The notes under the pieces were generated by a model. That model was not told the origin of the DNA and ran no database searches. It saw only the letters and a list, made by a program, of their open reading frames with translations. A program made the position numbers and the translations under genes. DNA of 52,878 nucleotides from a virus: positions 1 to 52,878 of IMG/VR virus record IMGVR_UViG_3300018421_000038. One strand, written 5' to 3'. Every line of letters starts with the position of its first letter. Position 1 is the stretch's first letter. Below, piece after piece: positions 5,904 to 52,878 of this stretch.

Positions 5904-7237
5904 TTAATTACCTCGTGACCATAATTTTCAAAATATTTTGTAGTATATACACTAAATTCCATATCAGTAGGATCCCAATCATCTTCAAATTTTAAATAAA
6001 TTTCGTCATCTTGAATCAATTGTTCAACAGATACTGTAATTGACTTCAGTAAGATATTTGGATCATACTTTTCAGTAATACTAAAATATACTGTATCATT
6101 TGTAGAATAACCTGCAAGTTTTATAAATTTTTTAGTTGTAGGGTTTAAAAGTAATTCCCATCTTTTTAATTTATTGTTTTGTCTAATAAGTAAATCATAT
6201 TCTTTATCTATGTGAAAGCTATATAGCTCTTTGCCTACTAAAACTTTGTCTCCGTTTGATAACTCATTACTTTTGTGTATGGTCAAATAGTTTTTTTCTA
6301 TAGAATAAATATCCTTTGTAGTTAAATTTATAACACTCAGCCCATTATTATATTCTATCAAATTACTTCCAGAATAGAAAAAAATGTCTCCAAATTCTCT
6401 TTTGTGTACAAGTTCATTCACATCAATCATATATAGTTTGTTATTATCTAAAAATTTATCTCCTATGGTAGTTGGATCTTGAAATTCAAGTTCCTTATTA
6501 CTATCATTGTATAGAATTACATTTTCTACAATTAATTCACAATTACTTTCGTTAAAACTTGTATTTCTTTCTTGGTCTTTTTTAATTTTGTATACATTAC
6601 CATTATAATAGACGTGTTGTCCGGCCACATGTTCTAATTCATTATACCATACATCAACATGTACTCCATCATATATTGGTACAGAAACTTCTAAAGACAC
6701 TGTATGATCTTTTGTTGACAAATCTGATAACTTTACATCTTCAACAAAAAGTAATACGTTATTGAAGTCAAAATCTTCATTTTCTTTGTTGTCTTTTAAA
6801 AATCTGTATATATTGTTATTATAAAAGACTAATTGATCTTTTTTGTATCTATCTTGCTTAATAAAAATATCTATACTTACACCGTCGTATATTTTTTCTA
6901 AACTAGAATGTCCTTCGTTACTAGAGCTAGTTCTTGAAAATTCATGAATAAAAGAGCTAGCACTGTTATAATGATCTTCATAATTAATTTCTTTTACAAC
7001 AACCTGTTTCAATACAAAATCATATACAACTACAAAATCAGAAACACTTTTTGTTCCTTCTAAAATAGGTTTTACTATTTCTGTAGCAACTGGTGCAATT
7101 TCGTATTCGGTATCTAAAGGTCTCCGATTGGTAATTTTATAAATTTTACCTGTTGCTTTTTCATAAGAAACATAACTTTCGTTTTGTTTTGCTTGTTGTA
7201 TTTTAATACTATTAAGTAATTCTTTTAAATTAGACAT
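5900..7237 (-). CDS. Unknown beta-rich protein with two sugar-binding-like repeats
   Basis: 445 residues, not recognised. An internal repeat is visible: DGVSIDIFIKQDRYKKDQLVF followed by YNNNIYRFLKD (about 118-150), and DGVHVDVWYNELEHVAGQHVY followed by YNGNVYKIKKD (about 189-221). The 'Y..GD/Q.V.Y.N..Y....D' pattern resembles the small CBM5/12-like modules that also recur in the giant protein encoded at 20025-35804. The N-terminus (YVSYEKATGKIYKITNRR) looks like an independent small domain. It lies inside the glycosyltransferase operon, overlapping genes on both sides (4 and 8 nt). It could be a fibre-associated or glycan-binding protein, possibly the target of the neighbouring transferases. 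That last point is speculation. Confidence 0.5.
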   Translation of the reverse strand: MSNLKELLNSIKIQQAKQNESYVSYEKATGKIYKITNRRPLDTEYEIAPVATEIVKPILEGTKSVSDFVVVYDFVLKQVVVKEINYEDHYNSASSFIHEFSRTSSSNEGHSSLEKIYDGVSIDIFIKQDRYKKDQLVFYNNNIYRFLKDNKENEDFDFNNVLLFVEDVKLSDLSTKDHTVSLEVSVPIYDGVHVDVWYNELEHVAGQHVYYNGNVYKIKKDQERNTSFNESNCELIVENVILYNDSNKELEFQDPTTIGDKFLDNNKLYMIDVNELVHKREFGDIFFYSGSNLIEYNNGLSVINLTTKDIYSIEKNYLTIHKSNELSNGDKVLVGKELYSFHIDKEYDLLIRQNNKLKRWELLLNPTTKKFIKLAGYSTNDTVYFSITEKYDPNILLKSITVSVEQLIQDDEIYLKFEDDWDPTDMEFSVYTTKYFENYGHEVIK

Positions 7238-47234: not shown

Positions 47235-48163
47235 TAGATGAATCCTTCGTCAGTTGGTATAAAATCACCCCTTGCAAAAGCTTCTAAGCTAAATCTACTA
47301 TGGGCTGTTCTAGCATAGTTAGGTACAACAGTTACCGTAATTATACTTTGAGTAGGAACATAAGTTACTTCTCCGCCTATATCGCACTCAATATAATCTA
47401 CATCTGCAGGCATGTCTGTAGTAAAGTTAGTTACAAGTATAGGAACATTATTAAAAACATGTTTTCCGTACCCATTAAGTCTACAAACAGGTGGAGGATT
47501 TCCTAAATTATTACTTTTGCCATAATACATTTTTGTTACTGTACGTAAAAAATGTAAACACGCTACCCAATATCTTGCATCATCGTCGTTTTCACTAAAA
47601 AATTCTCCTGTAAGGGTAAGATTGTCAATTTGACTATTTTCATACGCATAAAATGGATGGTTTGTATGAGTAGGATGCACTGGTGAATAATTTGCACTAG
47701 AACCGATAATAACTGTAGGTGTGAAAGGAAAAATCATACAATTATCTGTATTACTTATTGGTCTTAATACTTCTCCTTGTATAAGTTCACTAGGTGCTTG
47801 TATTTTTACTCGCCAGTCAACTGCGTCAACTGTGTTATAATCATCTCTAATTATAGCTCTTATAAAGTTTTTGCCTTCCGGTGATGCTCCGTAAGACACT
47901 CCTTGAAGTGCATTGCCTGCCATCCTTATTGCAGATCCAACTTGTGATAGTGTTCCGCTTCGACCGTTTATTAGAGTATCAACTGCTCCAAGTGCGTTTG
48001 CTACATTATTGACAGTATTACCTCTACCTTGCGATATATTTCTAAAAGAAGTTATTGCTGTGTTAAGACTAGATGTTACTCGCGAAACATTTTGAGATGT
48101 TTGTACGATGTTTGATCCTATAATATTACCAGCAAGGTTACTAAATGAACTTAAAATTGACAT
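47234..48163 (-). CDS. 48: Baseplate tail-tube cap/junction protein (gp48/gp54-like)
   Basis: 309 residues from MSILSSFSNLAGNIIG. An upstream in-frame ATG at 48196 is rejected because the late promoter box (48183-48190) lies downstream of it, whereas GGAG at 48174-48177 suits the ATG at 48163. The C-terminal half (LTGEFFSENDDDARYWVACLHFLRTVTKMYYGKSNNLGNPPPVCRLNGYG, NVPILVTNFTTDMPADVDYIEC) has the tube-like fold motifs of T4 gp48 and gp54, which connect the hub to the tail tube. The N-terminus is helical. Choice of 48 over 54 rests on gene order in related phages. Confidence 0.75.
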   Translation of the reverse strand: MSILSSFSNLAGNIIGSNIVQTSQNVSRVTSSLNTAITSFRNISQGRGNTVNNVANALGAVDTLINGRSGTLSQVGSAIRMAGNALQGVSYGASPEGKNFIRAIIRDDYNTVDAVDWRVKIQAPSELIQGEVLRPISNTDNCMIFPFTPTVIIGSSANYSPVHPTHTNHPFYAYENSQIDNLTLTGEFFSENDDDARYWVACLHFLRTVTKMYYGKSNNLGNPPPVCRLNGYGKHVFNNVPILVTNFTTDMPADVDYIECDIGGEVTYVPTQSIITVTVVPNYARTAHSRFSLEAFARGDFIPTDEGFI

Positions 48164-48182
48164 AACGATATATCTCCATAAG

Positions 48183-48190
48183 TATTTAGT
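48183..48190 (-). promoter_or_regulatory. T4-type late promoter box heading the baseplate block
   Basis: ACTAAATA on the minus strand, 20 nt above the ATG at 48163. The CTAAATA form is known from T4-like marine phages. Its upstream end shares base 48190 with the first base of the rightward -35 element. Confidence 0.65.
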
Positions 48191-48218
48191 TGACAAAATT
48201 ATCTACGTATATTATAAT
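48190..48218 (+). promoter_or_regulatory. Perfect sigma70 promoter for gp55
   Basis: TTGACA (48190-48195), 17 nt, TATAAT (48213-48218): a full consensus host promoter, 25 nt above the gp55 ATG at 48243. Transcription by unmodified host polymerase early in infection is expected. Confidence 0.9.
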
Positions 48219-48223
48219 AAATA
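48216..48223 (+). promoter_or_regulatory. Possible late box overlapping the gp55 -10 element
   Basis: AATAAATA follows and overlaps TATAAT. If used, transcripts would start near 48229, just upstream of the GGAG site (48233-48236). It may be a by-product of the AT-rich -10 region. Confidence 0.3.
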
Positions 48224-48242
48224 CATTACAACTGGAGTAGTT

Positions 48243-49082
48243 ATGAGGAGAAAAAATTATCTTAACAACAAAGACATACTTAAAGAAATACATAGATCAA
48301 AAAATACTTTTAATAGTTATGTTGACAAAGAGTACGCTGACTATGATATAATTTTAGACAGCGTAGATAGAATAAACATTAGAACAATCGCAGAAGCAAA
48401 AAGAAATAAAGCAAAACGCTTGAGTACCGAAGATTATGAACGTAGACGTTTAGCAGGAGAAAAATGCAAACAGGCCGATTGTGAAATTGATTACAGATCA
48501 ATTTCAAAAGAAGAATTAATTTTTCGAATCATGACGTTCGACCACATTCCAGACGAACCTGGACGGAAAAAAAATCCTAAAACTGTTGCTGACACAAAAG
48601 TAAAATTAAATTTTCCACCTTTTCAACATTTTAAGTTTACCGAAGACGGTGAACTAGTATGTGTAGGTAAGTCACATTGGCAAGGCGGCATGGAAAACGG
48701 ATATTTTAATAATAAACACGGAAAAGCAACAGACAAACTTGCACTCATGTGGTTAAAATTGGTAGATCGTTATGCTACTCGCGGAAATGTTCGGGGTTAT
48801 ACTTATAATGACGAAATGAAAGGTCAAGCTATTCTACAACTTTCACAAATAGGACTACAATTTGACGAATCTAAGTCAAATAATCCGTTTGCTTACTATA
48901 CAGCAGCAGTTACAAATAGTTTTGTGCGTGTAATTAATATTGAAAAGCGTAATCAAAACATTAGAGACGATATATTAGAACAAAACGGATTGAATCCTAG
49001 CTATACTAGACAACATGAAGGTGAATGGGAAGCAAGTGTTAAACGAAATGAAGAGGCGTCTCAGTCGCCATTTACAAAATAA
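48243..49082 (+). CDS. 55: Late transcription sigma factor gp55
   Basis: About 279 residues from MRRKNYLNNKDILKEI. GGAG lies 6 nt upstream. An open frame extends back to 48108 but crosses the promoter, so it is not used. The C-terminal part (GQAILQLSQIGLQF, NPFAYYTAAVTNSFVRVINIEKRNQNIRDDILE) is the sigma region 2-like core of T4 gp55, which directs host polymerase to TATAAATA boxes together with gp33 and the sliding clamp. The N-terminal half is basic and longer than in T4 (185 residues). First gene of the rightward operon, beside the late promoter it should activate. Confidence 0.88.
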   Translation: MRRKNYLNNKDILKEIHRSKNTFNSYVDKEYADYDIILDSVDRINIRTIAEAKRNKAKRLSTEDYERRRLAGEKCKQADCEIDYRSISKEELIFRIMTFDHIPDEPGRKKNPKTVADTKVKLNFPPFQHFKFTEDGELVCVGKSHWQGGMENGYFNNKHGKATDKLALMWLKLVDRYATRGNVRGYTYNDEMKGQAILQLSQIGLQFDESKSNNPFAYYTAAVTNSFVRVINIEKRNQNIRDDILEQNGLNPSYTRQHEGEWEASVKRNEEASQSPFTK

Positions 49083-51932: not shown

Positions 51933-52135
51933 TGGAAGACACTCAAGACAAACTAGTAAAGGCTTATTTAGAATATTTTAAGGCAAACGAAAAATTTGAA
52001 GCTCGTAATTCTGTGCGGACTCATAGATATGTAAGAAAATGTCTTAGAGAAATTAGAGAATTAGCAAAGACACGTATGGAAGAAATACACGAGACGCATA
52101 ATAAAACTAGGAAAATCAAAAAAGATAATATTTAA
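51932..52135 (+). CDS. Small basic helical protein, unknown
   Basis: 67 residues, highly charged: NSVRTHRYVRKCLREIRELAKTRMEEI is a long basic helix that could touch nucleic acid or gp46/47. A similar small gene is usual after gp46 in T4-like marine phages, but I know of no assigned function. Its TAATG overlap with gp46 suggests translational coupling. Confidence 0.7.
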   Translation: MEDTQDKLVKAYLEYFKANEKFEARNSVRTHRYVRKCLREIRELAKTRMEEIHETHNKTRKIKKDNI

Positions 52136-52158
52136 CATAGGCTTCGGTAAGTAAGTTC

Positions 52159-52608
52159 ATGCAATGGACTTATGAAGGAAAACAAATTGATACAATACCA
52201 GACGAGTATGAAGGATTTGTTTATCTCATAACTAATCTTACCACTGGGCAAAAGTACGTAGGCAAAAAACTAGCAAAATTTAAAACTACAAAACCACCTC
52301 TCAAAGGCAAAAAAAATAAACGCAGAGGCTACAAAGAAAGCGATTGGAAGGACTATTGGGGTTCATCTGATAGACTCAACGCTGACGTTGAAGCACTAGG
52401 CCCAGAAAACTTCACAAGAGAAATATTATACCTATGCAAAGGCCGTGGAGAAATGTCCTACATAGAGGCACGAGAACAGTTTGACCGCCGTGTATTAGAG
52501 AGAGATGATTATTACAACGGTATTATTAATGTTAGAGTTGGCGGATCAGACAAACTACGACAGGCATTGCTAGAACATAGCATCAAGGCAAAACAATCCA
52601 ACACATAA
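52159..52608 (+). CDS. GIY-YIG-like nuclease domain protein
   Basis: 149 residues. GFVYLITNLTTGQKYVGKK (about 19-37) has the spacing of the GIY-YIG motif, with Y-L-I for GIY and Y-V-G for YIG. YKESDWKDYWGSSDRLNADVEALGPENFTREILYLCKGRGEMSYIEAREQ supplies the usual following helix with Arg and Glu candidates for catalysis. No separate DNA-binding domain is visible after it, so it may be a resident phage nuclease rather than a homing enzyme. Its ribosome site is weak (GGTAAG). It ends immediately before the structured non-coding stretch. Confidence 0.72.
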   Translation: MQWTYEGKQIDTIPDEYEGFVYLITNLTTGQKYVGKKLAKFKTTKPPLKGKKNKRRGYKESDWKDYWGSSDRLNADVEALGPENFTREILYLCKGRGEMSYIEAREQFDRRVLERDDYYNGIINVRVGGSDKLRQALLEHSIKAKQSNT

Positions 52609-52878
52609 GGTTGGCGGGCCAGACTAGAAATACCGCTGTGGAAAAAGCATCCGTATAGGAGCACACGTAACACGTTAAGCGGCGTTCGGTAGTAGAGCGT
52701 TTGATTGACGTAGACTGATTGTTGGCTGTCGAAAAACTGCACATTGTACATAAAAACCGTATGCACTAGGAACGAAGCAACGGGTAGCGAAAGCGATGTC
52801 GACGTAGGTTGGGAAAGGTCAGAGCCCATTGTACAGCAGAAAACACCTACTTCCAAGTCTCGGCTGTGGCGAACTCAC
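52609..52878 (+). ncRNA. Candidate structured RNA (truncated by window edge)
   Basis: There is no plausible gene on the plus strand, and GC is about 48% by direct count over 52621-52878, well above the surrounding genes. Complementary segments: 52612-52617 with 52633-52638 (GCGG/CCGC core plus wobble pairs); TCC 52650-52652 with GGA 52658-52660; GTAGGTTGGG 52804-52813 with CCCA 52825-52828 and ACCTAC 52845-52850, a 10-bp stacked helix with a 16-nt bulge; and a GC-GAAA-GC mini-hairpin at 52787-52794. CATTGTACA recurs (52742-52750, 52827-52835), with self-complementary TGTACA that could form a loop-loop contact. It does not match tRNA, and I saw no tmRNA or RNase P signature. Strand is assumed from the upstream operon. 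Confidence 0.55.

Follow-up and report, generated by a model that had tools for sequence, protein, structure and literature searches.

The locus and the extent of the element

The window analysed here is a whole stretch of 52,878 nucleotides of viral DNA, IMG/VR virus record IMGVR_UViG_3300018421_000038, and the record stops where the window stops. At its end, a gene for a 149-aa SegE-like GIY-YIG nuclease (52159–52608, + strand) is directly followed by the 5′ part of a structured non-coding RNA (52606–52878, + strand). The protein passes the Pfam SegE_GIY-YIG profile with 120.8 bits against a cut-off of 25 (E 5.3e-35), and the gene's stop codon, or a base or so ahead of it, is where the RNA begins. 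A sequence-only reading of this DNA had placed the element behind the gp46/47 operon; the region does lie downstream of it, but the element actually starts at the GIY-YIG stop codon. The window end carries about the first three-quarters of the RNA and the rest lies beyond the contig, in keeping with the earlier statement that it continues past the window edge. Two IMG/VR contigs, L001 and L002, match the last 270 nt of the window at 100% identity and then continue, and in L001 the RNA is complete. The profile match there spans 6448–6827 (window position = L001 position + 46158), with the missing 3′ portion at 6721–6827 and the 3′ end 107 nt past the window edge. Full-length RNAs measure about 340–380 nt.

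The stretch 52609–52878 is GC-rich and without a credible ORF, both as initially described: its GC content is 49.6%, against 23.7% to 45.9% in other 270-nt windows of the contig, and an ORF search of the stretch found none that was credible. ARAGORN gave no tRNA or tmRNA match in the window, a search that excludes the 3′ part beyond it. In L001, a terminator scan placed a terminator-like hairpin at 6795–6816, inside the RNA profile match (the region has two sites of this sort, shuffles 0.6), and a 252-aa ORF lies downstream of the RNA, from 6950.

Several other features were seen around these loci. A near-repeat (GTTGGCGG..CAGAC) has one copy late in the GIY-YIG gene (52537–52551) and another where the RNA starts (52610–52624). 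Upstream of gp47, a conserved gene of 324 aa (48108–49082) has no Pfam match; it reads like a late sigma factor of the gp55 type. In L001, TATAAATA (6915–6922), shortly ahead of the downstream ORF, resembles a T4 late promoter. In L066, L067, L069 and L071 the GIY-YIG gene has AAA in place of its usual TAA stop, and the next in-frame stop there would be a TAG two codons on, inside the RNA. A number of contigs (L003, L004, L009, L014, L019, L025, L028, L036 and others, the window end among them) stop 30–260 nt past the GIY-YIG stop, inside the RNA; near-identical cores common to different phages may break assemblies.

Comparative evidence for the structure

The structure model contains 60 pairs in 12 helices with one pseudoknot, and was counted on 45 A-type sequences of <80% identity. 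All helices given here lie on the + strand. The P1 hairpin (52613–52617 with 52633–52637) is paired in 99.6% of cells, with two of its five pairs changed on both sides, and is the helix previously reported at 52612–52638. It is followed by P2 (52638–52640 with 52664–52666; 100% paired, one of three pairs changed on both sides), by P2b, apical to P2 (52647–52651 with 52658–52662; 80.9% paired, five of five changed on both sides), and by P3 (52672–52678 with 52705–52711, with inner pairs 52680–52682 with 52701–52703; 90% paired, five of ten changed on both sides). The innermost pair of P3 is broken in 29 of the 45 relatives and is probably wrong in the model. Further along are the P4 hairpin (52713–52717 with 52726–52730; 96.9% paired, four of five pairs changed on both sides) and P6 (52757–52760 with 52780–52783 and 52763–52764 with 52777–52778; 97.7% and 95.2% paired, four of six changed on both sides). 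The GAAA hairpin that had already been recognised is P7 (52787–52794; 86.5% paired, both of its two pairs changed on both sides), at a position where other phages have longer variable inserts.

The long-range helix P5 (52746–52750 with 52830–52834) is 99.1% paired, and all five of its pairs are changed on both sides. Its two strands lie within the repeated CATTGTACA singled out at first reading, and it crosses P9, forming a pseudoknot. P9 (52804–52809 with 52845–52850) encloses P8 (52810–52813 with 52825–52828); both are >99% paired, make up a near-invariant core and coincide with complementary segments seen from the start. One of the six P9 pairs is changed on both sides, one by G-U only and three never vary, while in P8 three pairs never vary and one departs only by an unpaired cell, none being changed on both sides. 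As P8 and most of P9 are invariant, covariation is no test of them, and P8 is neither supported nor refuted. The repeats GCTGTGG and GACGTAG are present as reported, but have no role in the model.

Over the 45 relatives, 95.3% of 2685 cells are paired, compared to 85.7% in shuffles, and 286 cells are changed on both sides, compared to 97 ± 8; pairs with such changes number 30 against 21.4. Slid controls gave 34–44% paired, with 8–45 cells changed on both sides. The model was drawn from a 99-sequence alignment that overlaps the 45 sequences counted, and therefore these counts lean towards it. Against a tree-simulated null (20 alignments), six column pairs reach E ≤ 0.05, four of them model pairs and two not; at E = 1 there are 28 column pairs against one expected, of which 12 pair in at least 95% of sequences and 16 do not. 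Folding energy gives no support (z = +0.67 on the + strand and +0.96 on the − strand) and is uninformative, so the structural evidence is comparative only. Compensatory changes, whose absence would have refuted the first proposal, are abundant in the 45 relatives, and a large phage-encoded structured RNA, as first proposed, is supported as far as sequence comparison can support it.

Distribution behind the GIY-YIG gene

The carriers of the RNA are uncultured T4-like phages, inferred to be aquatic. Among the best 80 IMG/VR relatives of the GIY-YIG protein, 77 have the RNA by profile, beginning at the GIY-YIG stop codon in most loci; the three misses (L015, L058 and L061) are contigs that end no more than 30 nt from the match. 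A core scan blind to the protein gave at least 116 further loci (L088–L203), some of them on contigs from the protein search, and 194 of 203 loci have a profile match. Among the matches listed, a same-strand GIY-YIG gene ending within 1500 nt lies upstream in 97 of the 97 RNA loci that have at least 800 nt of upstream DNA. About 270–315 nt of other DNA separates the gene from the RNA in L045, L145, L158, L105, L117, L128 and L191, showing that the RNA is independent of the stop codon.

The GIY-YIG family was extended with distant proteins, adding 159 new loci; in many of them the gene is followed by non-coding DNA several hundred nt long. A 3′-domain profile matches 270 of the 310 stretches and RNAs of this sort, which yields 184 distinct 3′ domains. 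Where gp46 lies within 2.5 kb upstream of the GIY-YIG gene (n = 117), the RNA is present in 101 loci, eight have too little DNA and eight give no match; in one of the last (L229) the word pair described below is visible by eye. Without gp46 within 2.5 kb, seven loci have the RNA, 17 do not and five have too little DNA, and in three of these seven (L302, L303 and L317) gp46 is found about 2.7 kb upstream. Loci with too little upstream DNA comprise three with the RNA and 10 without. In the other four of the seven, the GIY-YIG gene and the RNA are still together in L244 and L267, in which gp46 is on the opposite strand, and occur in L331 and L348 without gp46 in the DNA around the locus. The 3′ pattern occurs once per contig in six of seven contigs scanned and is absent from the other. 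Two counts disfavour a role of the RNA as leader of the following gene: of 154 loci, 38 have their next ORF (100 aa or more) on the opposite strand, and 136 have a stem of six or more pairs within about 70 nt after the second word (no shuffle control for the stem).

No isolate was found with the window piece, the L001 RNA or three other types by blastn against 50,697 phage records, which gave either nothing or only short matches of 4–9% of the query and does not exclude relatives beyond the reach of blastn. The Melnitz records, the closest GIY-YIG carriers among isolates (65%), and four other isolates have no profile match around the gene, and Melnitz-like loci have a different sequence at the RNA position. 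The core pattern had no match in genomes, and five MAG contigs with a GIY-YIG relative gave none by two profiles. Four records titled as bacterial or archaeal MAGs (L363–L366) carry the phage GIY-YIG gene together with a 72-aa neighbour gene and are probably misbinned phage contigs. A single-linkage cluster of 117 spacers rests on a loose threshold and has no value as proof. A literature search that lacked most subscription papers and all preprints found no paper on such an RNA next to a GIY-YIG gene.

RNA types and their relation to Rfam

The 3′ domain has the order ACUC-word, hairpin, UGAC, AUCU-word. The 5′ domain comes in at least three kinds by eye: that of the window, a CTGTTT[GA]ATC kind (e.g. 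L141 and L223) and a kind matching RF01718. Homology among the 5′ kinds is not shown; the 3′ domain and the position are common to all. A complement test for P5 in another 5′ type succeeded in 14 of 17, but shuffled pairs reach the same in 49% and the test is not independent.

Rfam includes GOLLD and intron families. The window's type has no Rfam match (window 52130–52878 at E ≤ 10; L001 6300–8300 at E ≤ 1), and RF01718 in particular is found neither in the window, nor in L001 6300–8300 (E ≤ 1), nor in the L001 record (E ≤ 10). The sequence-only reading had left the RNA unassigned, which holds for the window's type, but relatives at the same place match the orphan family RF01718 ("Polynucleobacter-1") in their 5′ domain. 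Such matches behind the GIY-YIG gene were obtained in 17 of 20 chosen loci with 70.8–120.9 bits, the covariance-model gathering score being 37 bits; other samplings gave two of 10 from mixed types, three of 20 records (two shared with the mixed set) and two of 20 records. L246 and L265 match RF01718. The RF01718 model is 141 nt long and covers only the 5′ domain of the matching relatives, and the 3′-domain profile is common to RNAs of this kind and of the window's type. Judged by its sequence, the window RNA is a relative of the RF01718 kind and not a member of RF01718. The motif was published in 2010 by Weinberg et al., with a table row giving Burkholderiales and fresh water/estuary (available part of PMC2864571). 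The available passages of that paper contain no link of the motif to a phage or a nuclease, and a literature search for the motif gave only this paper.

Among the possibilities offered at first reading were a GOLLD-like RNA, an intron core and a new class. A large structured RNA is borne out, but covariance models of GOLLD and other Rfam large RNAs, and of group I and group II intron cores, have no match in the window or L001, so that neither GOLLD nor an intron family is matched. The RNA is like GOLLD, ROOL and OLE in being a large structured RNA of unclear role, and unlike them in having no Rfam match in the window or L001; these three form homo-oligomers, according to the part of PMC12286853 that was available.

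A duplicated 7-nt word in the 3′ domain

The 3′ domain of L001 holds a word, R1 (ACGTGAA, 6719–6725), that recurs identically as R2 (6782–6788). Only its first two bases fall within the window (52877–52878, + strand), and the duplication, beginning two bases before the window end, had been missed at first. When the words are placed by their flanks alone, R1 and R2 are identical in 71 of 74 non-redundant RNAs, compared to a mean of 13.5 and a maximum of 27 in 2000 shuffles; 11 of 85 sequences had no flank match and were left out, and in one of the three differing pairs (L078) the pattern had, by reading, landed wrongly. There are 17 kinds of R1 among the 74 RNAs, and R1 and R2 start 47–70 nt apart. 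Throughout a set of 84 RNAs, the word has U at position 4, A at position 6 and a purine between them, while L240 and L241, by eye, seem to break this frame; R1 is preceded by C and R2 by U in 82 of the 84. As the flanks of R1 and R2 stay different, we infer that gene conversion is an unlikely cause of the identical words.

In the 99-sequence A-type alignment, columns 345–351 and 408–414 change together (e.g. G/G 89 and A/A 10). The number of identical column pairs (three) is within the tree-simulated null (mean 1.4, maximum 7); what carries the claim of a duplicated word is only the single register that these pairs share (offset 63), together with the wider comparison.

In the DNA around 179 RNAs there is no enrichment of the word (155 against 143 expected) or of its complement (69 against 84), whole phage and host genomes being outside the test. 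No intramolecular complement of the word recurs at a constant place. A rough scan did show a weak excess of such complements over shuffles (0.35 against 0.25 for 7-mers and 0.60 against 0.46 for 6-mers), and is biased by the choice of words by identity. Translational bypassing, known from T4 gene 60, was considered because every one of the 84 RNAs examined has UGA or UAA within its words. It was rejected on the finding that the frame before R1 is no more open than the others (median 13 codons in both).

Exchange of RNA types between close relatives

L357 and L359 have identical aligned GIY-YIG proteins and different words. Their DNA is 94% alike over the GIY-YIG gene; then come unmatched stretches of about 370 and 440 nt, after which the two are again 89% alike. 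L352 and L291, with 98% GIY-YIG identity, show the same pattern over a longer stretch with one 51-nt match inside. The type differs between matching flanks in these two pairs of close relatives, so RNA types were swapped, and only in these two are swaps documented. Whether or not the non-window member is of the RF01718 kind, differing RNA kinds replace each other between similar flanks in both pairs. As the RNA is replaced beside a near-unchanged GIY-YIG gene, the protein does not dictate the word. The word differs in 11 of 69 pairs with GIY-YIG identity of at least 95% and in one of three identical pairs; at least two of the differences (L264 pairs) are reading shifts. In phage exchange driven by homing endonuclease genes, nuclease genes lie at the boundaries of the exchanged stretches (available part of PMC10448857). 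Our locus is similar in having a nuclease gene at such a boundary, but what is exchanged in it is a non-coding RNA, while the adjacent nuclease gene stays alike.

Proposed role and alternative explanations

The RNA is real, almost undescribed and carried by many uncultured phages behind the same small nuclease gene. Computation resolves it as a modular non-coding element with a pseudoknot that directly follows a SegE-like GIY-YIG gene. It consists of a 5′ domain that can be exchanged, a core and a 3′ domain common to the types, and a hairpin usually comes after it. Our preferred reading, in which we place about as much belief as doubt, is that of a stand-alone, trans-acting phage RNA that presents the same site twice to one partner and undergoes exchange next to a nuclease of the homing type; its transcript, partner and function are all inferred. 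The RNA would be made as a stand-alone transcript from the 3′ end of the gp47–gp46–GIY-YIG operon or from its own promoter, for which there are no transcript data, and would act in trans. Both words would make contact with a single partner, the simplest candidate being a nucleic acid that varies from phage to phage or host to host, though none was found; that there is one partner is inferred from the two copies changing together while their flanks stay fixed and different. The adjacent nuclease may promote recombinational exchange of RNA alleles, in the way that homing endonucleases promote exchange of the DNA beside them, and the replacement of RNA types would suggest selection by the host or a competitor. 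A bolder idea, which we hold only loosely and consider unlikely, is a new nuclease–RNA cassette, in which the duplicated word of a domain-shuffling RNA serves as a replaceable tag of specificity by which phages or hosts are distinguished, and the GIY-YIG protein spreads or acts on the tag.

An alternative explanation would be a cis-acting 3′ UTR element, whose fold protects, processes or terminates the gp46/GIY-YIG mRNA without a function of its own. The RNA lies at the 3′ end of the GIY-YIG gene in 97 of 97 loci checked (among the matches listed), starts at the stop codon in most of the best 80 loci and is mostly followed by a hairpin, the L001 scan included, all of which would fit. The 270–315 nt or so between gene and RNA in L045, L145 and L158 would not, and we infer that a role in stability does not obviously need a pseudoknot, exchangeable domains and two identical variable words. 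We regard it as improbable, yet worth keeping in view.

The GIY-YIG protein could also bind the RNA and be directed or regulated by it, as in other nuclease–RNA pairs. In HEARO/IscB and TnpB omega-RNA systems, too, a structured RNA is closely coupled to a gene for a small nuclease within a mobile context; the nuclease there is of the HNH or RuvC kind, and here it is GIY-YIG. The 97 of 97 linkage (among the matches listed), kept with gp46 on the opposite strand or not found nearby, would favour such a ribonucleoprotein. However, no target was found here, including no enrichment near the RNA, and the RNA type changes without a change in the protein: identical or near-identical GIY-YIG proteins are found with different RNA types and words, and GIY-YIG relatives without a detected RNA exist. 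We consider a ribonucleoprotein rather unlikely.

We are more doubtful still of an element acting at the DNA level, with the two 7-bp words as the overlaps at sites of recombination or cleavage, and with an RNA-like pattern that reflects only part of the stretch. Crossover sites show an identical short variable core between fixed but different flanks, as seen here, and the swapping is unit-wise; against this stand compensatory pairing over 12 helices, G-U pairs included, and words that start only 47–70 nt apart. That the RNA is the degenerate remnant of an intron, or of another mobile ribozyme, next to its homing endonuclease is hardly tenable, for although GIY-YIG enzymes often travel with group I introns and the fold is pseudoknotted, the position is intergenic and Rfam gives no match in window 52130–52878 (E ≤ 10) or L001 6300–8300 (E ≤ 1).

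Returning to the stand-alone RNA, the way in which its two identical words vary in step while their flanks remain fixed points to a specific partner. That entire RNA types are replaced while the nuclease next to them hardly changes suggests, by inference, a locus under diversifying selection. Finally, an orphan Rfam motif, described in 2010 as a bacterial, fresh-water candidate in the part of PMC2864571 available, gains a phage home, about three times the length of its model and a constant neighbour, so that its function becomes testable.
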